A stretch of DNA of 64,000 bases from Flavobacterium fluvii (GTDB lineage Bacteria; Bacteroidota; Bacteroidia; Flavobacteriales; Flavobacteriaceae), in the NCBI RefSeq assembly GCF_900129545.1, contig NZ_FQWB01000007.1:1-64000 (forward strand). Direction: 5' to 3'. Of this stretch, positions 5,193 through 22,785 are shown piece by piece (within the stretch, counting starts at the first letter, position 1; every line of letters starts with the position of its first letter). Both the position numbers and the translations under genes were made by a program. The notes under the pieces were generated by a model. It had not been told where the DNA came from, did no database searches, and saw nothing but the letters and a program-made list of their open reading frames with translations.

Positions 5193-7940
5193 ATGCTAAA
5201 AACAAAAACTTTTGCTCTCCTTTTATTCCTAATTCAAAATTGCTATTTGTATTCACAAGAAATACTGCCATTTGTTGAAAATTACAGCAAGTTGCATTAT
5301 CATGGAGACAACCAGATATGGAATGTTGCCCAGGGAAATGACAAGGCAATGTATTTTGCAAACAATCATTATTTGTTGCGATATGACGGCGTGATGTGGG
5401 AAAAATATACACTTCCCAACAAAACCATCATTCGTTCCATCATGATAGAAGGAGACAAGATTTACTCCGGCTCTTATAAAGAATTTGGGTATTGGCACAG
5501 AAAAGACGGTAAAATGCATTATGTGTCTATTACCAAAAACCTGCGACTATTTGATGAAAAAGACAATGAAGAAATCTGGAAAATTTTCAAATTTAACGGG
5601 TCAATTTATTTTCAGTCCTTTAATGTTGTTTTTATCTATAATGGCAAGCATATCCAAAAAACCAGATTTCCATTTCTAATATCTTATTGTTTTGTAGTTG
5701 AAAAAAACCTGTATGTGGCATCTGTGGAAAAAGGAATTTTCAAGATGGATGGCACTAGAATTACTCGACCAAAAGGATGGAATGTTCCCAAAAACACAGT
5801 TGTTCATGCCATTGAAAAACATCAGGGCAAAGTATATGTTTTTAGCCAGAAAAAAGGAATTTTTATCCACGAAAACAACAATCTCACAGCTTGGCATAAT
5901 CCCTTAAATGAAATATTAAAAACAGTCACCATCAATGTGGCAAGGTTTACAAAAAACAATCAGCTGATTATCGGTACAGGCAATAAGGGGATTTATGTTT
6001 TTGACTTGAATACCAATACCTACAAAAATATCGATCGTGACAATGTCTTGATGAATAACTCCATTTTGAGTATCGGTTTTGATAAAGAGGACGATTTGTG
6101 GCTGGGACTGGACAATGGCATTGCCCATGTTGAAGTAAATTCTCCCATCTCCATATTTTACGATAATTCCGGAATTTTAGGCTCTGTATATTCCGTGGCA
6201 ACTACCACGAAAGGGTATCTGATTGCTTCCAATCACGGCGTTTTCGAATATGAATCAGGGAAATTTACCATGCTTCCCAATACTCAAGGACAAGCTTGGA
6301 ATATTACCAAAATTGATGATAAATACATTATTGGCCACAACGATGGCACATTCTGTTACGACAATGGTTCTTTTTATAAAATCAACAATGTAAACGGTGG
6401 TTGGAATTTATCAAAAAGCAGCATTAACAATACCTGTTTTCAGTCAACCTATAGTGGAATTTTAGTTTATGACGACATTACTAAATCAACCGAGCATAAA
6501 ACAATTAAAGAGATACTGAAACCCATAAAATATGTGGCACAAAATAAAAAGAACGAAATTTTTGCTGCCGATAATTATCGTGGTTTATACCGGGTTCTAT
6601 ACAACGATGGGTATCAAACAATAAAGGTTGAAAATATTACCCAACTAAGCAAGATAGAAAATGATTTTGGAGTCAAGATTTTCGAATTCAGGAAAGAAAT
6701 TCTCTTCTTGATCAACAATTCTTGGTATACTTATAATTCATTGACCAACAAGTTGGAAGAGAACGAAATGTTCAATGAGAATTTCAAAAACATTTCGGAT
6801 GTCGTGGCCATTGACGAAAGTCATTTTGTGGTGCTTCAAGATGGAATTTTATATCATATTTATGCCAATGGCAATAAGTTCGTTTGGAATATCATTCAGG
6901 AGAAATATTATAAAGGAAAATTGATTAACGACAACTTGAAGATTTTTAGAGACAAAAATAATTACTTGTTGAATCTGGATGATGGTTTTATTTCACTTCA
7001 ATTAAAAACCGGCAACAAGCAAAATCTAGACCTTAAAATAGAAGCCTTCAACAATCAAAATCTTGTTGGTGATGATGATAAAATCAATTTTAATTCAGAA
7101 TTAAGAATTCATGTCGTTTCAGGAATTTATGGCGCCAGAAAACCCAATTTGTTTTACAAACTCAATGACACAAAAAACTTTGTACCCATTATTGATGGTT
7201 TGATTGTATTGAACAACTTAAGCAGCGGACTTCATTCTGTTGTTATTTACAAGAACGATGGCGTTAGTTATGATGAGCTTTCCAGTTTTGATTTTAAAGT
7301 GGCGCAACCTTGGTATTTTTCTTTTTGGATGATATTGTTGTATGCCGTTTTGATTGGAGTTGTTTTCTTTTTCTATTATAAATGGAACAAGTTGCGTTAC
7401 ATTCAAAAATTGAAATTGCAAGAAGAAGAACTAAAACACCAGAAAGAAATTCTAGAAATGGAATTGAAAGCAGAGAATGAATTGAATATCCAAGAATACG
7501 AAAAACACATCCTGGAACTTGAATTGCAAACCAAATCATCCGAAGTTGCAGGAAAATCATTGTCCATAGCCAAGCAAAGTGAAATGATTGACAATATTAT
7601 TCAAATCTTGGATTCTGAAAAAGATTTCAACAAACTAAAAAGCGAAATCAAAAAAGCAATCAAGATTAATGAGGTAAACAAACACGAATGGGAAATCTTC
7701 GAAACCAATCTAAACCAGATTCACAACGAGTTCATCATTAGTCTTTCCAAAAAGTTTCCAAACCTTACTTCAAAGGACATAAAATTATGTGTTTATCTCA
7801 AAATGAATCTTTCTTCCAAAGAAATTGCTCCGATGATGAACATCTCGTTTAGGGGTGTGGAACTTCACCGTTATCGTTTGAGAAAGAAATTAAACCTCTC
7901 TCAAGAGGAAAATTTGTCCAATTTTTTAGTTACTATATAA
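5193..7940 (+). CDS. membrane-spanning beta-propeller sensor with LuxR-type HTH (PUL regulator)
   Basis: The 915-residue protein has a signal peptide (about 1-21), a periplasmic part with repeated propeller-blade motifs (for example WNVAQGNDKAMYFANN, DDLWLGLDNGIAHV, KGYLIASNHGVFEY) to about residue 610, a triple-Tyr-like beta-sandwich (about 640-703), one membrane helix (about 707-730), a long coiled coil (about 733-800) and a cytoplasmic LuxR-type helix-turn-helix at about 857-910 (LSSKEIAPMMNISFRGVELHRYRLRKKL). There is no histidine kinase domain, so signal and DNA binding are on one chain. Related proteins sit beside SusC/SusD pairs and activate them on glycan binding. It is followed by the SusC gene 244 bases downstream, which is its likely target. 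Confidence 0.85.
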   Translation: MLKTKTFALLLFLIQNCYLYSQEILPFVENYSKLHYHGDNQIWNVAQGNDKAMYFANNHYLLRYDGVMWEKYTLPNKTIIRSIMIEGDKIYSGSYKEFGYWHRKDGKMHYVSITKNLRLFDEKDNEEIWKIFKFNGSIYFQSFNVVFIYNGKHIQKTRFPFLISYCFVVEKNLYVASVEKGIFKMDGTRITRPKGWNVPKNTVVHAIEKHQGKVYVFSQKKGIFIHENNNLTAWHNPLNEILKTVTINVARFTKNNQLIIGTGNKGIYVFDLNTNTYKNIDRDNVLMNNSILSIGFDKEDDLWLGLDNGIAHVEVNSPISIFYDNSGILGSVYSVATTTKGYLIASNHGVFEYESGKFTMLPNTQGQAWNITKIDDKYIIGHNDGTFCYDNGSFYKINNVNGGWNLSKSSINNTCFQSTYSGILVYDDITKSTEHKTIKEILKPIKYVAQNKKNEIFAADNYRGLYRVLYNDGYQTIKVENITQLSKIENDFGVKIFEFRKEILFLINNSWYTYNSLTNKLEENEMFNENFKNISDVVAIDESHFVVLQDGILYHIYANGNKFVWNIIQEKYYKGKLINDNLKIFRDKNNYLLNLDDGFISLQLKTGNKQNLDLKIEAFNNQNLVGDDDKINFNSELRIHVVSGIYGARKPNLFYKLNDTKNFVPIIDGLIVLNNLSSGLHSVVIYKNDGVSYDELSSFDFKVAQPWYFSFWMILLYAVLIGVVFFFYYKWNKLRYIQKLKLQEEELKHQKEILEMELKAENELNIQEYEKHILELELQTKSSEVAGKSLSIAKQSEMIDNIIQILDSEKDFNKLKSEIKKAIKINEVNKHEWEIFETNLNQIHNEFIISLSKKFPNLTSKDIKLCVYLKMNLSSKEIAPMMNISFRGVELHRYRLRKKLNLSQEENLSNFLVTI

Positions 7941-8132: not shown

Positions 8133-8184
8133 CAACGTTGTAATTGCTTAAATTGGCTCTACTAACTTAATCAATCAAAAACTT

Positions 8185-11178
8185 ATGAGAAATTTTATTT
8201 TTAGCTTTTTAGCACTATTGCTACTACCGGCTTACATGTCGGGTCAGGCAATTAAAGGAAAAGTAGTGGATGGTAGTGGATTGGGAATTCCCGGAGCCAT
8301 TATTGTTGCTCAAGAATCCAAAACTACCGCTGAGACAGATTTCGACGGTAATTTTACCATAAATGCCAAAACTGGTGAAATTCTGAAGATTTCAATGTTG
8401 GGGTTTGACGCTGTTTCTGTAGCGGCAACTTCCGATTTAATGAATATCAATTTAAAAGAATCGCAAGACACCGCACTGAAAGAAGTTGTGGTCATTGGTT
8501 ATGGAACTGCCAAGAAAAGAGACTTGACAGGTTCGATCGTGAAAGTTCAGGCAAAAGAAATTGCCGACAAGCCCAACCCCAACCCCATAGTTTCGGTTCA
8601 GGGTAAAGTGGCCGGTCTTTCAATCGTCAATTCTGGAAAACCAGGTGAAGATCCCGATGTCAGAATTCGTGGTACGGTGAGTCGATATCAAACCAAACCA
8701 CTCTACGTGGTTGACGGAATATTTTGTGACGACATCAAATTCATGAATGCTTCCGACATCGAATCCATGGAAATTTTGAAAGACGCCTCCTCTTTGGCTA
8801 TTTTTGGTGTGCGAGGTGCAAATGGTGTAATCATTGTTACTTCCAAAAGAGCAAAAAACGGTAAAACCACCGTAAATTACAATACTTCCATCGGATTTAA
8901 AAACATAACCGATACGCCGTCATTAACAAATGCAAGTCAATTCAGGACGTTATATGATGAACAAAGAAGCAATCAAGGCTTGGCACCTTATTCTCAATAC
9001 GCTTTGTTCAATGCTGACACAAATTGGATTGATCAAATTAAAAATGACAATGCAACCATCATTACACATAACTTGAGTGTGTCAAATGGCACAGATAAAA
9101 ACAAGTTTTATTTAGGATTGGGATATATAGAAGATCAAGGATTAATTGATTACGAAAAATACAAAAAATTCACCTTCAATATTAACAACGAAACTCAACT
9201 AACAGAGTCCATCAAAATTGGAGTGGCAATGAATGGTTATACTTCTTCTCTACCCCAGTTGCATAATTTTGAAAGTTCCTTGAGAGCAACCCCAATTGTT
9301 GCTCCACGAAATGCCGAAGGAATCTACAATCAATTGCCGTTGGAAATTGGCGCCGCCCAAATTGGCAATCCACTTGCAAATGTGGAGGGAAAACAATTCA
9401 CGCAATTGAATGAAGAAACCAAATACATTGCCAATGCTTTTGCAGAAATAAAAATCATTGAAGGTCTAAAATTCAGAGGGTCTTATTTGTCTGACAACAG
9501 TTACAGTAAAGGAAGAGGCTATACTCCTGTTTTTGATGTTTACGTATCCGAGACGGATCAGTTAACTCCATACGGAGGAAATGCCCTTACAAACGTCAAT
9601 CAGTTTAAAAATGATTTCAAAAGAGCACAACAGGATTATAACTTTACCTATAATAAAGTTTTTGGAAAACATGATTTTACGCTTTTGGCCGGCTACAACC
9701 GATTGGAAGAAAATTTTGAAGGACTGAACGGAACTGTCAAACAATTTGTTGGCGGCGAACCCATTCCTTATGATAAAAGATGGTGGTATCTAAATGTTTA
9801 TCCTTACGGAGACCCTACAACGCGTTTTGCCAATTCAGACCAATGGGACAGGTCAAGCGTGTCGTATTTGGCTCGTATTTTGTACAATTATGATGGAAAA
9901 TACATAGTGAATGCCTCTTTCCGTCGAGATGGTTCTTCTGAACTTAGCGAAGAAAACCGTTTCCAAAACTTTTGGTCTGTTGGAGCCGCCTGGGACATCG
10001 TCAAAGAAGATTTCATGAAAGACCAAACCATTTTTAACCAATTGAAAGTTAAAGGTTCTTATGGTATTTTAGGGAATCAATATTCATCCATTCATTATCC
10101 GGCATATCCAGCATATACTACTGGAAGTTCGGCTATTTTTGGAGAATCCGTGGTTCCGGCCTATGTGTTGGCCTACCGAAACAATCCAAATTTGCAATGG
10201 GAAACCGTAACTTCTTATGAAGCAGGATTGGAAATGAAGCTTTTGGATAACAGATTGAGTTTTGAAACGGCTTATTTCAACAAAACAACCAAAGATTTAT
10301 TGACTTTTGTTGACCTTGGAAGCGAAAAATTCTATACCAATGCGGGAGAAATCGAAAATAAAGGATTTGAATTTACGGCTTCTTGGAATGATGAAATAAA
10401 TGATGATTTGAGTTATTCAATCAGTGGTAATGCCACTACACTAAAAAATGTCGTGAAATCAGTTTACGAACCTGGATTCCAAGTTTTTGACGGCCCTTCC
10501 ATACTTACGGCAGGTTCTCCTATTGGTTCATTCTACGGATATGTCGTGGATGGCGTTTACCAATCGTATGCCGATGTACTCGCCTCTGCACCAAGTTCAT
10601 TGGGTGATTACGGTCCTGGAGATTTCAAATATAAAGATGTAAACGGTGACGGAAAAATCAATACCGATGACAGAACCATAATTGGTAATCCAACTCCAGA
10701 TGTCATGTACGGTTTCTCATTGAGTGCAACGTATAAACAATTTTCATTGTCGCTTGATTTTCAAGGGGTTTATGGAAACGAAATTTACAGGGATTGGGGT
10801 AATGGTTCCACATTTGCACCATTCAATTATAGAACGGAAAGATTGGACAGATGGACCGGAGCTGGCACATCAAACTGGGAACCAAGGCTAAACGATGGTT
10901 CTGGTTACAATAAATTGGCTTCAACTTACATGATTGAGGACGGTAGTTACTTGAGACTAAGAAATGTACAGTTGGCTTATGATTTTGATTCCAAATTTTT
11001 GGAGAAAACATTTATCCAAAGTTTAAGGCTATTCTTGAATTCACAGAATCCAATTACTTGGGCTCATAATTCAGGGTTTACTCCAGAAGCCGGCGGATCG
11101 CCAATTTCATTTGGAAAAGACACGGGAGGATATCCTCTTCCAGCGATTACATCTATTGGTTTGAACGCAACTTTTTAA
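8185..11178 (+). CDS. SusC/RagA family TonB-linked outer membrane transporter
   Basis: The 997-residue protein has a signal peptide (about 1-20), a CarboxypepD-reg-like domain (about 21-95, IKGKVVDGSGLGIPGAIIVA ... TDFDGNFTI), the SusC signature VVVIGYGTAKKRDLTGSI (about 100-118), a plug domain with VRIRG and LYVVDG, and a long C-terminal beta-barrel ending in an aromatic residue (LNATF). It imports oligosaccharides across the outer membrane with the SusD lipoprotein encoded 19 bases downstream, driven by TonB. The adjoining GH144 and GH3 genes suggest beta-1,2-glucooligosaccharides as cargo. Confidence 0.95.
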   Translation: MRNFIFSFLALLLLPAYMSGQAIKGKVVDGSGLGIPGAIIVAQESKTTAETDFDGNFTINAKTGEILKISMLGFDAVSVAATSDLMNINLKESQDTALKEVVVIGYGTAKKRDLTGSIVKVQAKEIADKPNPNPIVSVQGKVAGLSIVNSGKPGEDPDVRIRGTVSRYQTKPLYVVDGIFCDDIKFMNASDIESMEILKDASSLAIFGVRGANGVIIVTSKRAKNGKTTVNYNTSIGFKNITDTPSLTNASQFRTLYDEQRSNQGLAPYSQYALFNADTNWIDQIKNDNATIITHNLSVSNGTDKNKFYLGLGYIEDQGLIDYEKYKKFTFNINNETQLTESIKIGVAMNGYTSSLPQLHNFESSLRATPIVAPRNAEGIYNQLPLEIGAAQIGNPLANVEGKQFTQLNEETKYIANAFAEIKIIEGLKFRGSYLSDNSYSKGRGYTPVFDVYVSETDQLTPYGGNALTNVNQFKNDFKRAQQDYNFTYNKVFGKHDFTLLAGYNRLEENFEGLNGTVKQFVGGEPIPYDKRWWYLNVYPYGDPTTRFANSDQWDRSSVSYLARILYNYDGKYIVNASFRRDGSSELSEENRFQNFWSVGAAWDIVKEDFMKDQTIFNQLKVKGSYGILGNQYSSIHYPAYPAYTTGSSAIFGESVVPAYVLAYRNNPNLQWETVTSYEAGLEMKLLDNRLSFETAYFNKTTKDLLTFVDLGSEKFYTNAGEIENKGFEFTASWNDEINDDLSYSISGNATTLKNVVKSVYEPGFQVFDGPSILTAGSPIGSFYGYVVDGVYQSYADVLASAPSSLGDYGPGDFKYKDVNGDGKINTDDRTIIGNPTPDVMYGFSLSATYKQFSLSLDFQGVYGNEIYRDWGNGSTFAPFNYRTERLDRWTGAGTSNWEPRLNDGSGYNKLASTYMIEDGSYLRLRNVQLAYDFDSKFLEKTFIQSLRLFLNSQNPITWAHNSGFTPEAGGSPISFGKDTGGYPLPAITSIGLNATF

Positions 11179-11197
11179 CATTAAAACTTGAATAAAA

Positions 11198-12664
11198 ATG
11201 AGAAATTTTAAATCTATACTATATATATCGCTACTGGCCGTTGTTGCATTACCGACCTTAAATTCATGTAATGACGATGATTTTTTAGACAGGAAACCAT
11301 TGGGTACCGCAGTGGAAGGAGATTTGCCGGCGGGAGGTTTTGAAGAAAAAGCTTTTGGTCTATACGGAAAAATGAGGACCCAAGGAGGTGTTACGGATTG
11401 GGACAGGTACTGGTTCCAAAATATTCGTTCAGACGATGCCATGAAAGGAAGTTTTCCCGGAGATGCCGCAACTAGAGGCAACATAATGGATCGTTTTGTT
11501 TATTCCACAACTGAATTTGCTGCCAATTGGGATGGTCATTACAGCTTGATTTTTGCCTGCAATGATTTGATTGCCGATGTTGACAATTCCGGAAAAACGG
11601 ATGCCGGAAGCATTATAAACAAAGCAGAGGCTTCAGCCATTCGTGGACTTGCTTATTTTGAATTGCGCAGGGATTATGGCGAAGTGCCCATTATCTTGAA
11701 AAAAATAGTCAGTCCAAGCGATGGAATCAAAGCAAAATCTACCGTTGCTGAAGTAGATGTCCAAATTATAAGTGACCTGGAATTTGCAGCAACCCATTTA
11801 CCTCTTAACTGGCCTGCTTATCCAGGCAGGGCAACCAAAGGTTTTGCCAATTCGATATTGGCCAAACTTTATTTGTACCAAGGCAATTGGGCAAAAGCAT
11901 TGGAAAAATCTGAAATCGTAATCAACTCAGGGCAATATACCCTTTTCAATTCGTACGAAACTTTATTCAAAGAGCAAGGTGACAATTGCAGTGAAGCCAT
12001 TTTTGAAGTGCAATTCCTGAGACAAAATGGTGTTGATTATTCGAACAATTATTTTGAATCACAAGGTTATAGGGGTTCGGGTGCTTGGGATTTAGGATGG
12101 GGATTCAATGTTCCTACCATTAATTTGTTCAATGCTTACGAAGTGGGAGATCCACGTAAAAACTCCACGATTCTTTTTTCTGGACAAGACGATGGCTACG
12201 GCAATGTGGTTCCTCTTAGTGTTGATCAGCCGTATTGGAACAAAAAAGCATATTCCACACCAAGTTACAGAGCCCTTCAAGGAACAGGAAAAAACTTTTG
12301 GTTTAACGTGAAAATCATTCGCTATGGCGATGTTATTTTAATGGCTGCCGAGGCTGCAAATGAACTGGGAAACAGAACAAAAGCGGCTGGTTATGTCAAC
12401 CAAATTCGTAAAAGAGCAAGAGGCAACACCGCTGGAATACTTCCTGACGTACCTGCAGATGCCAACCTCAAAAATGCAATAAAACACGAAAGAAGAATAG
12501 AATTGGCAATGGAAGGAGAACGTTTCTATGATTTAGTTCGTTGGGGTGATGCCACAACGGTATTGAGCAGTTTAGGATATCAGGACAAAAACAAATACTA
12601 TCCTATTCCCCAAACAGCCGTTGATCAATCTGGAGGGGTTTTAAAACAAAATCCTAATTATTAA
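11198..12664 (+). CDS. SusD/RagB family surface glycan-binding lipoprotein
   Basis: A 488-residue lipoprotein. The lipobox is LNSC followed by NDDDFLD, an acid-rich sequence like the Bacteroidota lipoprotein export signal for surface exposure. The helical SusD/TPR core is visible (KAEASAIRGLAYFELRRDYGEVP, AKLYLYQGNWAKALEKSE) and the C-terminal signature (HERRIELAMEGERFYDLVRWG) is complete. SusD proteins cap the SusC barrel and bind the incoming glycan. It is co-transcribed with susC. Confidence 0.95.
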   Translation: MRNFKSILYISLLAVVALPTLNSCNDDDFLDRKPLGTAVEGDLPAGGFEEKAFGLYGKMRTQGGVTDWDRYWFQNIRSDDAMKGSFPGDAATRGNIMDRFVYSTTEFAANWDGHYSLIFACNDLIADVDNSGKTDAGSIINKAEASAIRGLAYFELRRDYGEVPIILKKIVSPSDGIKAKSTVAEVDVQIISDLEFAATHLPLNWPAYPGRATKGFANSILAKLYLYQGNWAKALEKSEIVINSGQYTLFNSYETLFKEQGDNCSEAIFEVQFLRQNGVDYSNNYFESQGYRGSGAWDLGWGFNVPTINLFNAYEVGDPRKNSTILFSGQDDGYGNVVPLSVDQPYWNKKAYSTPSYRALQGTGKNFWFNVKIIRYGDVILMAAEAANELGNRTKAAGYVNQIRKRARGNTAGILPDVPADANLKNAIKHERRIELAMEGERFYDLVRWGDATTVLSSLGYQDKNKYYPIPQTAVDQSGGVLKQNPNY

Positions 12665-12710
12665 TAACCATTCCACTTAAAAAATAAATAAGATGAACAT
12701 CAATATAGCA

Positions 12711-13523
12711 ATGATTAAGAAAGCTTTCGGAATAGTGTTTATTTCGATGGTATTTATAGGATGTCAGGACATGGACAGACCGGAATTGGGAAACTATCCT
12801 ATAGATGAAAATCCTGTGGGAGGACCTTTGAAATTCTATGTCCCTTTTGACAACAACACGACAGATCCACTGCGGTTTGCCGTGGACAATATTCGTGCAA
12901 AATTTCCCACTGACAATCCTCTAACCCAAACCGAAGGAATAAATGGAAAAGCAGCGCAAGGAGGTGTGGCAAAAAAATTCATATCCTATTCGTCTGCAAA
13001 TGATTTTGCAGCTACAGCAGCGAGTTTTACAGTTTCATTTTGGGCAAAACACAAAGCACCAACCCAAACAGAATTTGCATTTGCACTGACAAGTGACAAC
13101 TGGGCAAAGGCGGCAATGTTTGTAATGGTGGAAGGAACAACTGCAAACCCGGTTTTGAAACTTTTTGTGGATGAACAGCCAAGCACGGGAGGTTCCGACA
13201 AATGGTTTGAATGGGTAAATGCCAAAGCTGTTCCTGGCATATTTGACGATCAATGGCATCATTATGCATTTGTTTATGATGGAACAATTTCAAAAATGGT
13301 GCTTTACAGAGATGGTGTGGCATACGAACCTCTTAGCCAATGGACAAATCATGGAAACATAAAATTCAACACTTCAAAAGTGGGTAGTTTTAGAATAGGA
13401 GGATCAGGAAATCCAGAAGAAGGATGGATGAACTCCTGGACTGGCGCATTGGATCAATTCAGGTTGTATGCTTCTGCATTGACTGCCGCAGAGGCAAACC
13501 AGTTGTTTACCGGGAAACTTTAA
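12711..13523 (+). CDS. LamG-domain surface lipoprotein, likely surface glycan-binding protein
   Basis: About 270 residues. The start at 12711 (MIKKAFG) is preferred over the ATG at 12693 because it gives a compact lipoprotein signal with lipobox FIGC. After a Pro-rich linker, residues from about 40 onward form a concanavalin A-like/LamG jelly roll (LKFYVPFDNN, ASFTVSFWAKHK, DDQWHHYAFVYDG, GALDQFRLYASALTAAEANQLF). No catalytic residues of the related hydrolase families are evident. Its place after SusD is that of SusE-like surface glycan-binding proteins. A hairpin terminator follows the gene. Confidence 0.8.
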   Translation: MIKKAFGIVFISMVFIGCQDMDRPELGNYPIDENPVGGPLKFYVPFDNNTTDPLRFAVDNIRAKFPTDNPLTQTEGINGKAAQGGVAKKFISYSSANDFAATAASFTVSFWAKHKAPTQTEFAFALTSDNWAKAAMFVMVEGTTANPVLKLFVDEQPSTGGSDKWFEWVNAKAVPGIFDDQWHHYAFVYDGTISKMVLYRDGVAYEPLSQWTNHGNIKFNTSKVGSFRIGGSGNPEEGWMNSWTGALDQFRLYASALTAAEANQLFTGKL

Positions 13524-13540
13524 AATTTAAATAAAAAGGA

Positions 13541-13575: not shown

Positions 13576-13587
13576 ATACTTTACAGC

Positions 13588-14955
13588 ATGAAAAAAATCA
13601 AACTTTTATTAATCCCAACTTTTGTGTTTCTTTTATGTTGCAACAACAGTACAAAAGTTAATGAACAACCCATACAGCAGGAATCAGTTCAATTGACTGA
13701 TGTCGAAGCAATGGATCAGGTTCAAAAAGATGCCATAAAGTATTTTTGGGATTATGCGGAACCCAATTCAAAATTAGGAAGAGAGCGTTACCACACAGAC
13801 AATCCAGGTTTTGAAGCCAGTAAAGTAACCACTGGTGGTTCTGGTTTTGGACTAATGTCCCTGATTGTTGGAGTGGAAAGAGGTTTTATTCCAAGAGCCG
13901 AAGCCGTTACCCGAATGACCACTGCCATGGATTTTCTGGAAAAAGCAGATCGTTTTCACGGAGCTTGGGCACATTGGATGGATGGAAACACAGGAAAAGC
14001 CATTTCTTTTGGAAATAAAGACGACGGTGGAGACATAGTTGAAACTGCTTTTTTGTGCCAAGGATTGATTGCCGTTCGGGAGTATTTCAAAAACGGCAAC
14101 GTCCAAGAAAAAGCATTGGCTGCCAAAGCGGATAATTTATGGAAAGGTGTGGAATGGAGCTGGTACACCAATGGAGAAAATGCGATGTATTGGCATTGGT
14201 CACCCACATATCAATGGGAAATGAAATTCAAATTGGAAGGATACAATGAGTGTTTGATTGCTTACATTTTGGGTGCTGCTTCAACAACTCATCCGATTCC
14301 TGCCGCTGCATATCACGAAGGCTGGACACGAAACGGAACTATTGCAACCGACAAGACACAGTATGGAATTCCATTAATATTCAAATACAATACCGTTAGT
14401 GGAAATGCCGGTCCTTTGTTTTGGGCACAATATTCATACTTGGGATTAGATCCAAATAACTTGAAAGACAAATATGCGGATTATGGCGTTTTGACCCAGA
14501 ATCATGCCAAGATTATGGTACAGCACAGTCTGGTGAATCCAAAAAAATGGAAAGGCTATTCCGAAAAATGTTGGGGACTCACAGCCAGTTATTCCCGAAA
14601 TGCAGACGGAACAACTGGGTATTCTGCCCATGACACCGACAATGATTTAGGCGTAATTACTCCAACAGCCGCACTATCCTCTTTTCCGTACACGCCAATT
14701 GAGAGCATGAAGTTTTTACATTATTTATACGATGAAAACAAAGCAAAATATATTGGAATTGCTGGGCCTTATGATGCTTTTTCTCCCCATTTTAATTGGG
14801 TAACGCCGCGTTATTTAGCCATAGACCAAGGAACAATTGCTCCCATGATCGAGAACTATCGAACAGGCTTATTGTGGAAATTATTCATGAATGCACCCGA
14901 GGTAAAACAAGGCTTGTTGAATCTAGGTTTTCATTCAACGAAATACGGATTTTAG
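13588..14955 (+). CDS. GH144-type endo-beta-1,2-glucanase (glucoamylase-like fold lipoprotein)
   Basis: The 455-residue lipoprotein has lipobox LLCC near residue 18. It matches the 'glucoamylase family' alpha/alpha-barrel proteins now classed as GH144: KYFWDYAEPNSKLGRER, TGGSGFGLMSLIVGVERGFI, FHGAWAHWMDGNTG, DDGGDIVETAFLCQGL, WSPTYQWEMKFKLEGYNECL and FSPHFNWVTPRYLAIDQGT are all characteristic. GH144 enzymes cut linear and cyclic beta-1,2-glucan (sophoran) endolytically to sophorose-type products. It lies directly before a GH3 beta-glucosidase and probably acts on the cell surface or in the periplasm. Family placement is from memory of motifs. Confidence 0.8.
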   Translation: MKKIKLLLIPTFVFLLCCNNSTKVNEQPIQQESVQLTDVEAMDQVQKDAIKYFWDYAEPNSKLGRERYHTDNPGFEASKVTTGGSGFGLMSLIVGVERGFIPRAEAVTRMTTAMDFLEKADRFHGAWAHWMDGNTGKAISFGNKDDGGDIVETAFLCQGLIAVREYFKNGNVQEKALAAKADNLWKGVEWSWYTNGENAMYWHWSPTYQWEMKFKLEGYNECLIAYILGAASTTHPIPAAAYHEGWTRNGTIATDKTQYGIPLIFKYNTVSGNAGPLFWAQYSYLGLDPNNLKDKYADYGVLTQNHAKIMVQHSLVNPKKWKGYSEKCWGLTASYSRNADGTTGYSAHDTDNDLGVITPTAALSSFPYTPIESMKFLHYLYDENKAKYIGIAGPYDAFSPHFNWVTPRYLAIDQGTIAPMIENYRTGLLWKLFMNAPEVKQGLLNLGFHSTKYGF

Positions 14956-14996
14956 CCATTCAAACAGGAACAACAAGAACATATAAATACCATAGA

Positions 14997-17297
14997 ATGA
15001 AAAACAAATTAGTCTTACTTTTTTTAGTATGTGCTGTTTTAGGTTACTCTCAAAAAAAGAGCACAAAAAGTACCGTAAAAATTAAACCTAAATCAGAGTT
15101 TGTATCAGAGTTAATGTCAAAAATGACATTAGACGAGAAATTAGGACAACTGAATTTACCAACTTCTGGCGATATAACCACTGGTCAAGCCAATAGTTCC
15201 GATGTTGCCAAAAAAATCGAAGAAGGCAAGGTTGGCGGTTTGTTCAACATCAAATCTGTACAGAAAATAAAAGAGGTACAACGAATTGCAGTCGAAAAAA
15301 GCCGTTTGAAAATTCCCTTGATTTTTGGCATGGACGTCATTCACGGGTACGAAACCACTTTTCCTATACCTCTTGGACTTTCCTGTACTTGGGACATGAA
15401 CTTGATCGAAAGAAGTGCCCAAATCGCGGCACAGGAAGCGAGTGCCGATGGCATCAACTGGACCTTCTCCCCCATGGTTGATATTTCTCGTGACCCACGT
15501 TGGGGAAGAGTTTCTGAAGGTTCCGGGGAGGATCCTTATTTAGGAAGCCAAATAGCCAAAGCGATGGTGAATGGATATCAGCAAAATGATCTTTCAAAAA
15601 ACAATACAATTTTGGCATGTGTCAAACACTTTGCATTGTATGGTGCTCCAGAAGGGGGTCGCGATTACAATACGGTCGATATGAGCCACATCCGAATGTT
15701 CAACGATTATTTCCCACCTTATAAAGCCGCTGTCGATGCCGGAGTGGGATCGGTTATGGCTTCCTTCAATGAAGTGGACGGTATTCCTGCCACGGGAAAT
15801 AAATGGCTGATGACAGATGTTTTAAGAAAACAATGGGGCTTCAAAGGTTTTGTTGTTACTGATTTTACCGGAATTCCAGAAATGATCGCACATGGCATGG
15901 GCGATTTGCAAACAGTAACAGCCATGTCATTAAACGCCGGAGTTGAAATGGACATGGTAGGTGAAGGATTCTTGACTACTTTAAAAAAATCATTGGACGA
16001 AAAGAAAGTGACCATACAGCAAATCGACAATGCGGTAACTCTTATTTTGAATGCCAAATATGATTTGGGATTATTCCACGATCCATATAAATATTGTGAT
16101 GAAAAAAGATCTAAAACAGAGATTTTCACGACAGCCAGCAGAAAAGAAGCGCGCCAGATTGCTGCCCAGTCATTGGTGCTGTTAAAAAACCAAAACCAGG
16201 TATTGCCTCTTAAAAAATCAGGAACTATTGCCCTGATTGGGCCATTGGCAGATGCCAAAGAAAACATGCCGGGAACTTGGAGCGTGGCCACAAAAATGGA
16301 AAATGCAGTTTCATTATTGGCAGGAATTAAGGAAGTAGCCGGAAAATCCACGAAAGTACTTTATGCAAAAGGAAGCAATTTAGATTATGATGAAACTTTT
16401 GAAACCAATGCAACCATGTTTGGTAAAACCTTGAACAGAGACAAACGTTCCAAAGACGAATTAATCGCAGAAGCCTTAAAAGTTGCCAATCAAGCCGATG
16501 TAATCGTGGCGGCACTTGGCGAATCTGCTGAAATGAGCGGAGAAAGCAGCAGCCGTACAAACTTGGAAATTCCACAGGCTCAAAAAGATTTATTGAATGT
16601 GTTGTTGAAAACAGGAAAACCCGTCGTTTTGGTTTTATTTGACGGACGACCTTTGGTATTAAATGATGAAAATGCAACTGTTCCCGCAATTTTAAATGTT
16701 TGGTTTGCAGGTAGTGAAGCGGGTTTCGCCATTGCCGATGTTTTGTTTGGTGATGTAAATCCTTCCGGAAAATTAACTGCCACTTTCCCGAGAAGCGTGG
16801 GACAAGTGCCCATTTATTATGCACACAAAAACACGGGAAGACCACTTTCCAATACCGAAGGCAAATTCGAAAAGTTCAGGTCCAATTATATCGACGAAAG
16901 AAACGAGCCGTTATTTCCATTTGGTTTTGGTTTGAGTTATACCAATTTTGAGTATTCAAACCTGAAAATTTCTTCCGATAAAATGAATTTCAGCGGGAAA
17001 TTAAAAGTAACAGTTGATGTTGCCAATACAGGAAATTTTGACGGAAAAGAAACTGTTCAATTGTACATCAGGGATATAGTTGGTTCAGTAACAAGACCCG
17101 TTAGAGAATTGAAAGGATTCCAAAAAATAACTCTCAAAAAAGGGGAAAAACAAACCGTGACTTTTGACATTGCGATTGAAGATTTAAAATTTTATAATTC
17201 TGAATTGCAATTTGTGGCGGAACCAGGGCAATTTGATGTTTTCGTGGGAGGAAATTCAAATGCCGACAAGAAAGTTAGTTTTGAGTTAACAAAATAA
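14997..17297 (+). CDS. bglX: GH3 family periplasmic beta-glucosidase (BglX-like)
   Basis: The 766-residue protein starts at ATG 14997, which gives a proper signal peptide (KNKLVLLFLVCAVLGYSQ); the longer frame from 14796 overlaps the GH144 gene and is rejected. Domains: GH3 N-terminal barrel (about 40-370) with nucleophile Asp289 in VVTDFTG, GH3 C-terminal alpha/beta domain with acid/base region GESAEMSGES (Glu516 is a candidate), and a fibronectin-III-like end (about 660-760). It hydrolyses beta-glucosides from the non-reducing end. Next to GH144 the likely substrates are sophorose and sophorooligosaccharides. It lies 41 bases after the GH144 gene. Confidence 0.9.
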   Translation: MKNKLVLLFLVCAVLGYSQKKSTKSTVKIKPKSEFVSELMSKMTLDEKLGQLNLPTSGDITTGQANSSDVAKKIEEGKVGGLFNIKSVQKIKEVQRIAVEKSRLKIPLIFGMDVIHGYETTFPIPLGLSCTWDMNLIERSAQIAAQEASADGINWTFSPMVDISRDPRWGRVSEGSGEDPYLGSQIAKAMVNGYQQNDLSKNNTILACVKHFALYGAPEGGRDYNTVDMSHIRMFNDYFPPYKAAVDAGVGSVMASFNEVDGIPATGNKWLMTDVLRKQWGFKGFVVTDFTGIPEMIAHGMGDLQTVTAMSLNAGVEMDMVGEGFLTTLKKSLDEKKVTIQQIDNAVTLILNAKYDLGLFHDPYKYCDEKRSKTEIFTTASRKEARQIAAQSLVLLKNQNQVLPLKKSGTIALIGPLADAKENMPGTWSVATKMENAVSLLAGIKEVAGKSTKVLYAKGSNLDYDETFETNATMFGKTLNRDKRSKDELIAEALKVANQADVIVAALGESAEMSGESSSRTNLEIPQAQKDLLNVLLKTGKPVVLVLFDGRPLVLNDENATVPAILNVWFAGSEAGFAIADVLFGDVNPSGKLTATFPRSVGQVPIYYAHKNTGRPLSNTEGKFEKFRSNYIDERNEPLFPFGFGLSYTNFEYSNLKISSDKMNFSGKLKVTVDVANTGNFDGKETVQLYIRDIVGSVTRPVRELKGFQKITLKKGEKQTVTFDIAIEDLKFYNSELQFVAEPGQFDVFVGGNSNADKKVSFELTK

Positions 17298-17320
17298 TTG
17301 GTTAGTTAATTTAGTAGTTG

Positions 17321-17352
17321 CCCTTCGTACTGGTTATGCGAAGGGTTTTTTT
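17321..17352 (+). terminator. intrinsic terminator after the GH3 gene
   Basis: CCCTTCG (17321-17327) and CGAAGGG (17339-17345) form a 7-base stem followed directly by seven T residues. It divides the PUL into an upstream part ending with GH3 and a downstream part (GDPD, GH43-like). Confidence 0.75.
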
Positions 17353-17382
17353 ATAAACAATCATAATTTCAATTTTATAAAA

Positions 17383-18168
17383 ATGAAGCCTATTAAAAGA
17401 TTTGGAGTATTTCTTTTTATGCTGGCAATAATTGTTTTCTCTTCTTGCAATGCGAAGAAAAACGCTGTTGTGGCACATCGTGGAGCTTGGAAAAAAAACA
17501 ATCTTCCGGAAAATTCCATTGCAGCATTACGGCACGCAATCGAATTGAAACTACCTGGTTCTGAATTTGACGTTCGGAGAACCGCCGATGATTCGCTGGT
17601 CATCAATCACGATCCACATTACAACAAATTGCCCATCGAGGAAACCAATTATGCCGACTTGATAAAGTTCAAACTTTCAAATGGCGAGAAGCTGCCCACT
17701 TTGAGCGAATATGTTACGGAGGGCAAAAGAAACAACAAACACACTCTTTTGGTTTGCGAAATAAAACCTTCAGAAATAAACAAGGAAAGAGGAAAAATGA
17801 CTGCCTTGAAAGTTGTTGAAACCGTAAAGAAACTCAAAGCCGAAAAAATAACCTGCTACATTAGTTTTGATTACGAAATTCTAAAACAAATCAGGCAAGT
17901 GGACAATAAAACTTCCTTGCAATACCTGGATGGCAATAAATCTCCAAAGGAAGTAAAATTGGATAACATCTCCGGAATTGATTATCATTATTCAGTCTTT
18001 AAAAAACATCCTGAATGGATAAAAGAAGCAAAAGAAAATAATATTACGCTAAACGCTTGGACCGTGAATGAGGTTGAGGTAATGGATTGGATTATTGAAA
18101 ATAATTTTGATTATATCACCACCAATGAACCTGAATTATTAAATCAAAAAATAAAGGATAAAAAATAG
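17383..18168 (+). CDS. glycerophosphodiester phosphodiesterase family lipoprotein
   Basis: This 261-residue lipoprotein (lipobox FSSC, Cys22) has the GDPD TIM-barrel signature: His32-Arg33 (AHRGA), Glu43-Asn44 (PENS), Glu61 and Asp63 (SEFDV), His76-Asp77 (INHDP), and the C-terminal NAWTVNE and ITTNEP strands. GDPD enzymes release glycerol phosphate from phosphodiesters. Within a beta-1,2-glucan locus the natural role may be to remove phosphoglycerol groups from decorated osmoregulated or cyclic glucans so that GH144 and GH3 can work. This role is inferred from the neighbourhood; ordinary glycerophosphodiester scavenging is the alternative. Confidence 0.85.
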   Translation: MKPIKRFGVFLFMLAIIVFSSCNAKKNAVVAHRGAWKKNNLPENSIAALRHAIELKLPGSEFDVRRTADDSLVINHDPHYNKLPIEETNYADLIKFKLSNGEKLPTLSEYVTEGKRNNKHTLLVCEIKPSEINKERGKMTALKVVETVKKLKAEKITCYISFDYEILKQIRQVDNKTSLQYLDGNKSPKEVKLDNISGIDYHYSVFKKHPEWIKEAKENNITLNAWTVNEVEVMDWIIENNFDYITTNEPELLNQKIKDKK

Positions 18169-18209
18169 CCTTTAGAGGTTTGTTTTAAAATAACATAAAA
18201 ATAAAAGAA

Positions 18210-20114
18210 ATGGATAAACTACCTTCACTATTACTTTTGTTGTTTTTGACAGGATTTAATGTCAATGTCTCAGCACAAAAAACAGAATGGTTCGACCCAA
18301 ACAAACCAGCGACAACGTATTGTAACCCGATAAATATTGGTTACAATTACACGACTTACAATCACAATGGAATTCCGGAATCTCGCCGTTCAAGCGCAGA
18401 TCCCGTCATCATTACTTTCAAAGGCGAATATTATTTGTTCGCGACCAATCAGGCAGGTTTTTTCTGGAGCAAAGACCTGTCTGATTGGAAATTTGTTTAC
18501 GGAAGTTTTCAAAGACAGCCGGGCGATGACGATCAATGTGCCCCAGCAGCCTGGGTTGTAAACGATACTTTGTTTTATGTGGGGTCAACCTGGAAAAGGG
18601 ATCATCCAATTTGGAAAACAGCCGATCCAAAATCGGGTCGATGGCTAAGGCACGTTGACACCGCCATGTTGCCAACCTGGGATCCCGCCATTTTTCAGGA
18701 CGATGACAAAAAAGTATACATGTATTACGGTTCAAGCGGAAAATTGCCTTTGGTGGGAGTTGAAGTGGATTACAAAACATGGTTGCCAAAAGGGAATCAG
18801 GCAGATTATGCAAAATTATATAAAGCTACAGAAGTTGAGGATATTCAGCGTCCGTATGGTGAAGTAAAAGCAGTTGTTGGCTTGGATCCTGCTTCACACG
18901 GTTGGGAACGTTTTGGGCCCAACAACGACATGGAACCTGCTCCTTGGGGGAATTTTATCGAAGGTGCCTGGATGACCAAACACAATGGCAAATATTACAT
19001 GCAATATGGAGCTCCGGCAACTGAATTTAAAGGGTATGCTAATGGTGTACACGTTGGCGATAATCCGCTGGGACCTTTCACATACCAAAAACACAATCCA
19101 ATGTCGTACAAGCCTGGTGGATTTGTAATTGGAGCCGGACACGGAAATACATTTGCAGACAATTATGGAAATTATTGGAATACGGGAACCTGCAAGATTT
19201 CCATAAAAGATCGTTTCGAGCGACGCATCGACATGTTCCCTGCCGGATTTGACAAGGATGATGTCATGTATTCCAACACGTCGTATGGAGATTTCCCCAT
19301 CTTGCTTCCCACAGGTAAACGCGATCATGTCAATGGGGCTTCGTCAGGATGGATGTTGCTTTCATACAAAAAAAAGGCAACAGTATCCTCTTCCGAAGAA
19401 TGCATGGAAGTGCAGACGCACAGAGTGGACACAGGCGGGAAAAAAGTATTCGAAAAAATCTGTTATGATACCAAAAATCTCACCGATGAAGATATTCAAA
19501 CGTATTGGTCCGCCAAAACGGACAAATCCGGTGAATGGTTGCAGATTGATTTGGGTAGTAAAATGCAAATAAATGCATTACAGATTAATTATGCCGATCA
19601 CAAAGCCACGCAATACAACAAGGCGATGGATATTTATTATCAGTATCAAATCTTGATGTCCGATGATGCACAAAACTGGAAATTGGTGGTTGATAAATCA
19701 AAAAATGACAAAGACGTTCCTCATGATTATGTTGAGTTGACAAAACCTATTGAAGCACGTTTTGTGAAAATGGTGAATATCCACAATGCTTCCGGATTGT
19801 TCGCCGTTTCAGATTTCCGGGTTTTTGGAAATGGATTGTCAGAGAAACCTAAACCAGTTTCCCGATTCAAAGTGGACAGGAATGCCAAGGATTCCCGAAA
19901 TGCCATGATTTCTTGGAATGCTCAGCCAGATGCTGTTGGCTATACCATTTACTACGGAATTGCTCCTGATAAATTATACAACAACATAATGGTTTACAAT
20001 GGAAACTCTTATGATTTTAGAGGATTGGACAAGGAAACTGACTTCTATTTCAGCATTGAAGCCTTTAACGAAAGTGGAAAATCAAAAGTAACCAAAAACC
20101 TAAAAGTCAATTAA
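18210..20114 (+). CDS. GH43-like glycoside hydrolase with discoidin and fibronectin-III domains
   Basis: A 634-residue exported protein with an N-terminal signal peptide (about 1-22). Residues 30-395 are a five-bladed propeller of the GH43 type with the three acid residues in place: Asp64 (SADPVI, general base), Asp158 (TWDPAIF, pKa modulator) and Glu251 (IEGAWM, general acid). An F5/8C (discoidin) carbohydrate-binding domain follows at about 410-545 (IQTYWSAKTDKSGEWLQIDLG) and a fibronectin-III domain closes the protein (about 548-634). GH43 enzymes usually cut arabinosides, xylosides or galactosides; the substrate here is not clear. It is the last gene of the plus-strand PUL. Confidence 0.8.
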   Translation: MDKLPSLLLLLFLTGFNVNVSAQKTEWFDPNKPATTYCNPINIGYNYTTYNHNGIPESRRSSADPVIITFKGEYYLFATNQAGFFWSKDLSDWKFVYGSFQRQPGDDDQCAPAAWVVNDTLFYVGSTWKRDHPIWKTADPKSGRWLRHVDTAMLPTWDPAIFQDDDKKVYMYYGSSGKLPLVGVEVDYKTWLPKGNQADYAKLYKATEVEDIQRPYGEVKAVVGLDPASHGWERFGPNNDMEPAPWGNFIEGAWMTKHNGKYYMQYGAPATEFKGYANGVHVGDNPLGPFTYQKHNPMSYKPGGFVIGAGHGNTFADNYGNYWNTGTCKISIKDRFERRIDMFPAGFDKDDVMYSNTSYGDFPILLPTGKRDHVNGASSGWMLLSYKKKATVSSSEECMEVQTHRVDTGGKKVFEKICYDTKNLTDEDIQTYWSAKTDKSGEWLQIDLGSKMQINALQINYADHKATQYNKAMDIYYQYQILMSDDAQNWKLVVDKSKNDKDVPHDYVELTKPIEARFVKMVNIHNASGLFAVSDFRVFGNGLSEKPKPVSRFKVDRNAKDSRNAMISWNAQPDAVGYTIYYGIAPDKLYNNIMVYNGNSYDFRGLDKETDFYFSIEAFNESGKSKVTKNLKVN

Positions 20115-20200
20115 TAAAACAATGATTAGGATATATTAAACTCGGACTTACTCCTTTTTAATTCAAATTACCAATCAATTTGAATACCCCTTGTTTTTTT

Positions 20201-20899
20201 TTAGCAAATCAACAACAAACGATATTCCCCTTCCTTTTCCATTGGTGCCCTGTGAATACAAGGTAGAACCTGCTGTTTTGGATGATCCACCGCCAGGCGC
20301 CAAAGATGTCCTAATCCTAAATTAATAGGCACTATATGGGGTTGCGCCTGATAATGCAAATCAAAATAATTTTCCTTCAAAAAGTTTTCAAATTCCTCTG
20401 ATGGGCCGTTATGTAGTTCTTCCAATTTTTTTCGAATTTCAGGAATTAGAATTTTTTGCTCGGCTTGCTCATTGGAAATAATATCACTTGCCACTCCGTG
20501 ATAGGTACATAAAAAAGTGTCTGTTGCGATGGGCGAACGATCGACATGATACGAATACACATCAGTGGATATGAAATCAAATTCATCATCTCGTTCATAA
20601 CATTTAAGTAAATTAAGAGAGGGGGAAGCTCCAAAATCGGTTAATAATAGTAAATCATTCAAGATAATTTCCCTTGCTCTATTCCCCTTTTCTGATAGTT
20701 GGAGTGCCAATAGATCTTTAGGATAAACTTCCGTCATATTTTCTTTTATTTGCAGTTTACCTACAATCTCTTTAAAATCTCCTTCCAAATTTCTGTACCA
20801 GCATAGTGCATTCATTTCTCCCTTAAAATCAGTATTTACAAGTTCAGAAAAAGTGGATACCATTCCAATTTGGTTGCTGTCAGAAAATGTATTGCTCAT
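20201..20899 (-). CDS. DUF1826 family protein
   Basis: The 232-residue soluble protein matches DUF1826: DxFLCTYHGVASD, EQAEQKILIPEIR, NLGLGHLWRLAVDHP and the closing CIHRAP...RLLLIC are hallmark segments. Conserved Cys and His residues (Cys-Thr-Tyr-His, Cys-Ile-His-Arg) suggest metal or redox chemistry, but the function is unknown. In other bacteria the family often occurs near zinc-homeostasis genes; no such gene is seen here. A TAATTTTG box on the minus strand at 20936-20943 may be its promoter. Confidence 0.8.
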   Translation of the reverse strand: MSNTFSDSNQIGMVSTFSELVNTDFKGEMNALCWYRNLEGDFKEIVGKLQIKENMTEVYPKDLLALQLSEKGNRAREIILNDLLLLTDFGASPSLNLLKCYERDDEFDFISTDVYSYHVDRSPIATDTFLCTYHGVASDIISNEQAEQKILIPEIRKKLEELHNGPSEEFENFLKENYFDLHYQAQPHIVPINLGLGHLWRLAVDHPKQQVLPCIHRAPMEKEGEYRLLLIC

Positions 20900-21102
20900 A
20901 GTGTGATATCAAGAAGTTAGTTACTTAATGTACCACAAAATTATGGAATTACACGGAGTTACAGCATTTTTATCGCTATATCCTTTATTCTTTTACTGGA
21001 TACCCAAAATGGCTGCATTTGAGTCAGAGGGCAATCAAGCGATCTCCCCCTCTCGTGTTTTCGTTAATCTGGGTATCTAAAAATGAAACTGATAAATAGC
21101 GA

Positions 21103-22785
21103 TTACCAATCCAATTTTACCAGAGCCACGCCTTGACGTTCTAAATTTAAAGGCACTACACTTTTGGCAGATTTGATTTTAATTTTTTTAGTCAAGATAC
21201 ATTTTAGTTTTCCAGATTTTTCAAGGGTATCTATTTGTTCTTGCGTAGGATTTTGTGGCGAACCCATTTTTTTCCAAACTTCATAAGAATTACTGTTTTC
21301 TTTGTCAATTAAGTAAATGCTTAGTGCAACTTTTTTAGCGGGAATATTTTCGATAGTTACAGTTACGTTTTCTGTTGGACCTGGTTTATCATCGTCGTGA
21401 TAATTCCAGACCATTATTGCTGCTGATTTTGAATCCTTGCTTGCCAATGCTCCAATATCTGACTGTGTGCCGCGAACACTTGATTTTAAGATTTCGCCTA
21501 TCGGATACATACGATTGCTTTTGACAACTAAACGGTTTCCCGACATCATGCCAAACATCCTGAAAACATTAAGTACGGGTTTGTCCACTCCGTTGGTTGC
21601 AAGGTCGCGAAAGCCATAGAACCATGGTTGGTTTTCAAACTCAAAAGACCATGAAACTGCACCAAGAAAATTTGCTTTTGTCTGGTCTGCCAATATGTAT
21701 TTTCGAGCAAAAGATGCCGCTGTATAACTGGAATACATGGTGCCATTTCGGTAAGCATTTTCAGGATTGGTGGCCATTCCGCAGGCTGCACAGCCTTCTG
21801 GGTCTGATTCTCCAATTATGATGGGCAATTTTTTTGTTTCTGGATACGACATCGTAAGTTTAAACCCTGTCTCTATATCATTTAACTGTGGTGCCATATT
21901 CATTCGAACAGAACCATCTACCAATTTAGGACTGCCTTTAGCGTGAAAAAGAATCGCATCCATAGGCGAACCTATTTTTCCCGTTGCATAATTGGTCCCG
22001 CTAATGCAGTGTTTAATAAAATCATTGGTCCACTCCTGGGCCCCCTTCCCTTTTGTACCGGCAATATTAATTCCACCTATTTTTGCAGTAGGTAAAGCTT
22101 GCTTTAGTCCATCGGCTGCATAGTCGTACATTTTCAAAAATTCTTCTCGCGTACCTTTCCAATAGTGACCATTGGGTTCGTTCCATACTTCCCAATACCA
22201 GCTTTCCACCTCTTTTTGACCATAACGTTCCACCGAATGTTTGACCCATTCGTACACCAATTTTCGCCATTTATCATAATCTTTTGGCGGATAAGCCCAT
22301 CCCGTAATAATATCGGTATAAGGATCACCGGGTTTCCAATAATGTCTATATGGTGTCGGATGAGTTGACAATGCTTCAGGCATAAAACCTATTTGCGCCA
22401 AGGGTTTCATACCACGTGAAACATAAGTATCAAAAATACTGTCCACGATTTTCCAGTTGTATATTGGATTACCCAAACTGTCTTCGGTATAGGCATTGGT
22501 AGAACCCCATTTAAGAGCTGCAACGCCATCACCGCTCACCAACATACTGTGAGTGCGCACATATACGGGAACTGGACTCAAAGCTGCAATTTCGCCAAGA
22601 AGTTTTTTACCGTCTTTCATATACGTATAGTTGGGCTCATCATAGCCAAACCAAGCCCATACCGGAGTCATCGGAGCTATCTCTTGTTTAAGATCCACGG
22701 TAATTTCAGGACTTTGGGCATACAATGGCGCAGCCAAATACTGTACTACAATAACTATCAGGCAATACTTTATTAGTTTATGCAT
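21103..22785 (-). CDS. GH39 family glycoside hydrolase
   Basis: The 560-residue protein has a signal peptide (about 1-23). A TIM barrel of the GH39 clan-A type carries the acid/base Glu203 in WEVWNEPNGHYW and the probable nucleophile Glu326 in IIIGESDPEG, with a C-terminal beta-sandwich from about residue 440. GH39 contains beta-xylosidases, alpha-iduronidases and exopolysaccharide-cleaving enzymes; the substrate cannot be told. It is transcribed away from the XRE-cupin regulator. A small hairpin (TTGCGG/CCGCAA, 22802-22817) lies in its leader, about 17 bases before the start codon. Confidence 0.8.
   Translation of the reverse strand: MHKLIKYCLIVIVVQYLAAPLYAQSPEITVDLKQEIAPMTPVWAWFGYDEPNYTYMKDGKKLLGEIAALSPVPVYVRTHSMLVSGDGVAALKWGSTNAYTEDSLGNPIYNWKIVDSIFDTYVSRGMKPLAQIGFMPEALSTHPTPYRHYWKPGDPYTDIITGWAYPPKDYDKWRKLVYEWVKHSVERYGQKEVESWYWEVWNEPNGHYWKGTREEFLKMYDYAADGLKQALPTAKIGGINIAGTKGKGAQEWTNDFIKHCISGTNYATGKIGSPMDAILFHAKGSPKLVDGSVRMNMAPQLNDIETGFKLTMSYPETKKLPIIIGESDPEGCAACGMATNPENAYRNGTMYSSYTAASFARKYILADQTKANFLGAVSWSFEFENQPWFYGFRDLATNGVDKPVLNVFRMFGMMSGNRLVVKSNRMYPIGEILKSSVRGTQSDIGALASKDSKSAAIMVWNYHDDDKPGPTENVTVTIENIPAKKVALSIYLIDKENSNSYEVWKKMGSPQNPTQEQIDTLEKSGKLKCILTKKIKIKSAKSVVPLNLERQGVALVKLDW

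Follow-up and report, generated by a model that had tools for sequence, protein, structure and literature searches.

A glycerophosphodiesterase-family lipoprotein in a predicted beta-1,2-glucan utilisation locus of Flavobacterium: a candidate enzyme for the removal of phosphoglycerol decorations

Glucan decorations and the closest described enzymes

The closest solved relative of the GDPD lipoprotein analysed here is formed by the first ~235 residues of a Pedobacter terrae 'beta-1,3(4)-glucanase' (7WWC/7WW4). According to a portion of PMC12448869, the 7WWC glucanase was crystallised with laminarin and has no accompanying publication, and another sentence of that paper gives the code 7WWC to a xylanase. 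Among the matches listed for the open-access literature, we found no record of the activity of its GDPD domain. The phosphoglycerol of such decorated glucans is described as 1-phosphoglycerol, and its origin from phosphatidylglycerol implies an sn-1 configuration. GlpQ enzymes act strictly on sn-glycerol-3-phosphoryl esters, aided by the free C2 hydroxyl, and reject sn-glycerol-1-phosphoryl esters (excerpt of PMC7086022); therefore, if the glucan group is sn-1, the GDPD described below would need a handedness opposite to that of GlpQ.

Cyclic beta-1,2-glucans bear phosphoglycerol, succinyl or malonyl groups (passage of PMC11071196), and excerpts of PMC4881576 and PMC11071196 document the premise of a preliminary description of this DNA, namely that beta-1,2-glucans carry phosphoglycerol. 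Phosphoglycerol, succinate and phosphoethanolamine are the substituents listed for the OPGs of E. coli in part of PMC10514313, a beta-1,3;1,6 cyclic glucan of Bradyrhizobium bears phosphocholine to judge from the title of a reference in PMC4881576, and a section of a 2025 review (PMC11842490) states that the positions of the OPG substituents have not been identified. Among the matches listed from titles and abstract openings in open-access PMC, there was no paper on a phosphodiesterase with beta-1,2-glucan as its substrate, nor on a GDPD in GH16 or GH144 loci, and among those listed for an enzyme that takes a phosphate group off decorated periplasmic or cyclic glucans, again in open-access PMC, none was found. 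The words 'phosphodiester' and 'glycerophospho' have 0 occurrences in the available text of two papers on beta-1,2-glucan enzymes (PMC12102758 and PMC11842490).

The GDPD lipoprotein and its locus

We analysed a stretch of 64,000 nucleotides from Flavobacterium fluvii (contig NZ_FQWB01000007.1, positions 1 to 64,000), hereafter referred to as the window. A SusC/SusD pair and glycosidases in one gene order (Table 1) make this a polysaccharide utilisation locus as predicted from gene content. Its predicted beta-1,2-glucan target is well founded because the GH144-type protein matches the endo-beta-1,2-glucanase 5gzh with 511 bits (E = 1.8e-152). The GDPD gene lies between the GH3 gene and the GH43-like gene, with GH144 and GH3 as neighbours just as the preliminary description had it. 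The GH43-like F5/8 protein, which regularly accompanies GH3 and GDPD, is only weakly similar to solved GH43 enzymes. For a gene of ~235 aa between GH144 and GH3 in related loci, an SGNH hydrolase had been expected; Pfam assigned the one member scanned to Abhydrolase_2. This carboxylesterase gene, which could encode a desuccinylase, is found in 72/80 related loci (best 80 of 159) and is absent from the window (14955-14997).

Table 1. Features of the predicted glucan locus in the window
Feature	Position	Strand	Basis and remarks
Probable locus regulator, 915 aa, C-terminal LuxR-type HTH	5193..7940	+	PF00196, 24.3 bits; role inferred from position
SusC-like TonB-dependent transporter	8185..11178	+	TIGR04056, 822.3 bits
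SusD-like lipoprotein	11198..12664	+	Pfam
LamG-type lipoprotein with acidic residues after lipid Cys; probable surface glycan-binding protein	12693..13523	+	Pfam
GH144-type endo-beta-1,2-glucanase (predicted), lipoprotein	13588..14955	+	PF10091, 241.6 bits
GH3 beta-glucosidase, BglX-like	14997..17297	+	Pfam; NCBIfam PRK15098, 962.6 bits, cut-off 666
Terminator-like hairpin with T-run in the GH3-GDPD gap	17320..17346	+	Conserved position; putative function
GDPD lipoprotein, 261 aa	17383..18168	+	ATG-start ORF; Pfam GDPD domain
GH43-like protein with F5/8 type C domain	18210..20114	+	Pfam; after GDPD in 78/80 related loci

The assignment as a GDPD lipoprotein, made at the outset from the letters and open reading frames, agrees with the reading frame, the Pfam score (88.1 bits for GDPD, PF03009, over residues 32-251; cut-off 23.6) and a lipobox-like stretch with Cys22 (codon at 17446). 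GDPD is the sole Pfam domain of the chain, which contains no GH16 and is therefore not a GDPD-GH16 fusion. The catalytic set consists of His32 (codon at 17476), Arg33 and Gly34 (HRG), Glu61, Asp63, His76, Glu126 and Lys128, of which Glu61, Asp63 and Glu126 are the putative metal ligands by analogy. The residues first singled out as catalytic (His32, Glu61, Asp63 and His76) are thus all present, and the active site is invariant across an alignment of 20 clade sequences. The AlphaFold model (pLDDT 93.8, pTM 0.87) has the predicted TIM-barrel GDPD fold, and its top Foldseek matches carry GDPD domains (best 7ww4, E = 1.5e-31). The protein falls short of the NCBIfam equivalog cut-offs for GlpQ/UgpQ, scoring 28.7 of 254 bits with PRK11143, presumably the GlpQ type of E. 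coli, and 56.2 of 264 bits with PRK09454. The same genome encodes a second GDPD elsewhere, in which the stretch corresponding to His76-Pro105, close to the active site, spans 44 residues and is longer than the 29 residues found in 32/33 clade rows (one row was unresolved by the pattern).

Surface lipoproteins of Bacteroidota have acidic residues after the lipid cysteine, with a consensus of SDDFE in F. johnsoniae that also works in a relative (passage of PMC5080379). We scored this export signal in 79 loci as at least two D/E at positions +2 to +6 after the lipobox Cys called by a simple lipobox rule. Among the proteins with a called lipobox, the signal was present in 43/56 SusD and 23/24 LamG proteins and in just 2/67 GH144 and 1/51 GDPD proteins; the rule called no Cys in 28/79 GDPD, 12/79 GH144 and 2/58 SusD proteins, and a position filter passed just 58 SusD. 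The GDPD of the window reads CNAKKN from the lipid Cys. Judged by these signals, both the GDPD and the GH144 protein probably face the periplasm, and the glucan would therefore be imported intact and still decorated.

The terminator-like hairpin ahead of the GDPD gene recurs between GH3 and GDPD in 78/79 related loci (77/78 by another count), and co-transcription of the two genes is therefore not assured. Similar hairpins lie 3' of SusD (44/55) or LamG (21/24), and 6/7 loci without GDPD also have one 3' of GH3, while a scan of 78 loci found none between GDPD and the GH43-like gene. Terminator-like sites are not enriched in 4800-21200 (12 found, against 14.6 expected from shuffles), and the terminator argument draws on the conserved position only. 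We interpret the hairpins as points within a single locus at which expression is stepped down, with separate units as the alternative. A promoter of the GDPD gene's own was considered and rejected: TAnnTTTG, which we take to be a Bacteroidota promoter element, occurs within 200 bases upstream in 62/78 loci, but mostly inside the end of GH3. The final 120 bases of GH3 contain it in 67/79 loci, the GH3-GDPD gap in only 2/79.

Linkage within Flavobacterium and across the phylum

We scanned named genomes for GDPD relatives and, of the 159 obtained, kept the best 80, selected by GDPD similarity (identity of at least 74%) and belonging by name to 78 Flavobacterium and 2 'Flavobacteriaceae bacterium'. 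The locus is also present in F. johnsoniae strain CI04 (L022). The order SusC, SusD, GH144, GH3, GDPD is conserved in 79 of these best 80 of 159 loci and is followed by the GH43-like gene in 78; in L046, the contig stops after GDPD and no GH43-like gene is seen. The exception to the order (L004) has a 90%-identical GDPD at 1764-2546 of a 6.6-kb metagenome contig, among unrelated genes and with no SusCD, GH144 or GH3. This GDPD may be a moved copy, in which case it counts against the link being strict, or the product of a misassembly. Compared with the window, loci L005-L083 show a SusC identity of either ~32-36% or 72-84%, with SusD and GH144 likewise replaced or strongly diverged. The identities of GH3 (82-93%), GDPD (74-90%) and the GH43-like protein (83-88%) are steady in the same comparison, as if the transporter had been swapped around a fixed GH3/GDPD/GH43-like core.

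We then used a second sample that was not picked by GDPD similarity. In 149 Flavobacterium genomes, there were 42 GDPD matches in 40 genomes, and GH144 was present in 69 genomes. All GDPDs of at least 75% identity (29/29) were located 2.4-3.2 kb from GH144, and this type was present in 29/69 GH144-positive and 0/80 GH144-negative genomes (Fisher P = 3.7e-12 for presence against presence, with kinship ignored); 40/69 GH144-positive genomes were without it. The 13 matches of at most 66% identity were not seen near GH144: seven occur in genomes without GH144, two are far away (484 kb, or on another large contig), and in the remaining four draft assemblies (G346, G431, G331 and G418) GDPD and GH144 fall on separate contigs and may in fact be close together. 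Nearness of GDPD to GH144 gave a Fisher P of 3.9e-11, with these four scored as not near and kinship ignored. One in-frame stop lies inside the matched stretch in each of 2/29 matches (G394 and G222). The GDPD-GH144 arrangement in Flavobacterium is not due to chance. As a separate observation, PF10091 homologues occur in open frames of ~1400-1500 aa on contigs apart from the GH144 locus in G394, G337, G377 and G359.

The picture changes beyond the genus: the association with GH144 anticipated by the preliminary description holds in Flavobacterium (29/29 near GH144) and is rare in other genera (1/69 loci examined). In a phylum sample of 296 Bacteroidota genomes, PF10091 was detected in 105 and the GDPD clade in 33, the latter delimited by a clear gap in E-value, from 2.3e-52 to 1.1e-17 for the match that follows. 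The context of the 25 non-Flavobacterium members was read from surrounding genes and that of the eight Flavobacterium members from coordinates. Nine of the 33 are linked to GH144, namely the eight from Flavobacterium and L144 from another family. Among the 25, seven are linked to GH16 (six fused and one beside it; three fusions were confirmed by Pfam and three by a custom profile), five (L148, L162, L163, L164 and L166) have SusCD plus a metallophosphoesterase but lack a glucanase, two have an EEP-family gene only, and 10 have none of the scored partners; two of these partnerless members adjoin a GH3 gene (L158) or lie ~2 kb from a SusCD pair (L161). The context counts of the 33 members thus reject, outside Flavobacterium, the idea that the clade is generally paired with GH144. 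Because GH16, or SusCD with a metallophosphoesterase, is the more frequent partner in the wider clade, the substrate may extend beyond beta-1,2-glucan, and the loci with a metallophosphoesterase, SusC/SusD and GDPD are possible phosphodiester-scavenging loci. A phospholipase C-like phosphoesterase adjoins the GDPD-GH16 fusions in L153 and L154.

Conversely, 97 other genomes carry GH144, and we examined the GH144 loci of 76 of them; the 21 omitted were partly low-scoring or unlisted and partly not taken, and seven of the 76 were Flavobacterium loci chosen because GDPD was absent. GDPD was present in a single locus (1/76, or 1/69 for the non-Flavobacterium genera). A GDPD tree of 34 rows was built from 25 phylum-sample loci, seven hand-picked named Flavobacterium loci, the window and, as a very long outgroup, the genome's other GDPD. 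In this tree, the Flavobacterium group (support 100/100) joins a group of five rows (84/72), four GH16-linked and one with EEP only, inside a 95/91 set. As its neighbours in the tree are mostly GH16-linked, the link to beta-glucanases is wider than that to GH144. The GH144 label requires two changes on the tree, and one change suffices in 0% of bootstrap trees; the topology thus indicates that this beta-glucan-associated GDPD clade arrived in GH144 loci at least twice.

An EEP-family gene adjoins GDPD in 5/25 non-Flavobacterium clade loci, and a profile seeded from the same EEP subfamily found one in 9/76 GH144 loci (L169, L175, L177, L178, L185, L197, L200, L234 and L239), against an expectation of 2.8% per stretch that ignores kinship and derives from 20 genomes chosen partly for having such loci. 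Three more EEPs lie at 6.9, 12.5 and 12.8 kb from GH144, beyond the fetched stretches (G273, G103 and G226). In a quick tree of 54 rows, 16 EEPs (five beside the GDPD clade and 11 near GH144) fell in one group (SH-aLRT 99), which also takes in 7/38 other EEPs; a Pfam EEP scan of 20 genomes likewise placed 16 near GDPD or GH144, by coordinates the same 16. The nearest structures of this subfamily include one named mannosyl-6-phosphatase (4c1r, E = 3.5e-50). The family is common elsewhere (110/296 genomes). None of the 76 fetched GH144 loci holds EEP and GDPD together, and EEP is found in 0/80 GDPD loci (best 80 of 159). Given how common the family is, these counts are no more than suggestive of EEP replacing GDPD in GH144 loci, and repeated recruitment of phosphate-removing enzymes to such loci fits them. 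The EEP subfamily also adjoins GDPD-GH16 fusions. Sulfatase-family genes were noted in 9/76 GH144 loci (L177, L178, L179, L185, L213, L215, L224, L227 and L233; one Pfam-scanned), and some members of the sulfatase superfamily act on phosphoesters.

Candidate roles and comparison with known systems

The intact catalytic residues, the predicted fold, the lipoprotein signal without the acidic pattern and the tight linkage to GH144 are sequence-derived traits, and on these grounds we give about an even chance to the reading that the GDPD assists a beta-1,2-glucan utilisation locus by stripping phosphoglycerol decorations. We infer a sequence of steps in which SusCD would import cyclic or linear beta-1,2-glucan of other bacteria, the GDPD would hydrolyse the phosphodiester between glycerol phosphate and glucose in the periplasm to give glycerol phosphate and a neutral glucan, and GH144 would then cut the backbone, leaving the oligosaccharides to be finished by GH3. 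MdoG was not found in the genome by a search whose control was positive in E. coli, and PF10091 matches nothing in the genome except the GH144 protein of the locus; turnover of the cell's own glucan is therefore unlikely, and the second GDPD together with the lack of MdoG makes a foreign glucan the likelier substrate.

The familiar activity of the family suggests another role, for which the GDPD fold and residues are suited: the enzyme may scavenge phospholipid-derived glycerophosphodiesters of dead cells and share the locus since dead Gram-negative bacteria offer both substrates. The five clade loci with SusCD and a metallophosphoesterase in place of a glucanase are in keeping with scavenging, as is the GDPD of L004 outside any glucan locus, but the Flavobacterium type stands beside GH144 without exception among the 149 genomes, fusions to GH16 occur elsewhere in the clade and the cell owns another GDPD, and we consider this role unlikely, though a serious rival. 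The spread of the clade over beta-1,2 (GH144) and beta-1,3 (GH16) loci would suit an enzyme that takes off some other phosphorylated group, for instance phosphocholine or phosphoethanolamine, or acts on phosphorylated beta-glucans generally, with GH16- and GH144-linked members sharing one chemistry. Both substituents have precedents, phosphoethanolamine on OPGs (part of PMC10514313) and phosphocholine on the Bradyrhizobium glucan (reference title in PMC4881576). The grouping of the 16 EEPs near the GDPD clade or GH144, with a mannosyl-6-phosphatase among their nearest structures, points the same way, and the shorter His76-Pro105 stretch might leave space for a bulky substrate. However, GlpQ-type chemistry uses the C2 hydroxyl of unmodified glycerol (excerpt of PMC7086022), which is absent in a phosphocholine ester, and a substituent other than phosphoglycerol seems to us quite unlikely, if still a serious rival.

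It is very improbable that the GDPD is a mere passenger, inserted in the Flavobacterium locus and kept by linkage with no role in glucan use. Such a history would account for the GH144-positive Flavobacterium genomes that are missing the type (40/69) and for the terminator-like hairpin that precedes the gene, whereas the active site is invariant, the place of the gene has been kept while SusCD and GH144 changed, and linkage to GH144 arose a second time. Returning to the removal of phosphoglycerol, we tentatively extend it to the whole clade, although we doubt that so broad a proposal will hold: its members would be sn-1-specific glycan phosphodiesterases that strip phosphoglycerol from beta-1,2 and beta-1,3 periplasmic glucans and entered GH144 and GH16 loci in separate recruitments, in many cases with a gene of one EEP subfamily next to them. 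If true, Bacteroidota would have in common a set of enzymes for feeding on decorated proteobacterial glucans. In the Flavobacterium locus, a GDPD acting in this way would explain the use of decorated glucans and yield phosphate besides sugar, and it may offer a tool for making neutral glucans or for mapping substituent positions.

Among the known systems, the GDPD domain of 7WWC/7WW4 has 53% identity to the GDPD of the window, an rmsd of 1.2 to 2.1 A and the same catalytic motif. It stands in front of a GH16 laminarinase domain, whereas the GDPD of the window is a single domain, and the GDPD-GH16 fusion suggests that both activities meet on one substrate. Parabacteroides distasonis BDI_0402 (3NO3), whose structure is titled by family alone, is likewise a single-domain GDPD and falls in the same clade by score (173 bits; 313 with the clade profile), with a Foldseek TM-score of 0.87 between 3no3 and the model of the window's GDPD. 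The B. subtilis GlpQ 5t9b shares the GDPD fold and catalytic residues and matches the model with an E-value of 2.0e-16. The GH144 protein of the window groups with the endo-beta-1,2-glucanase 5gzh and with BDI_3064 (5z06).
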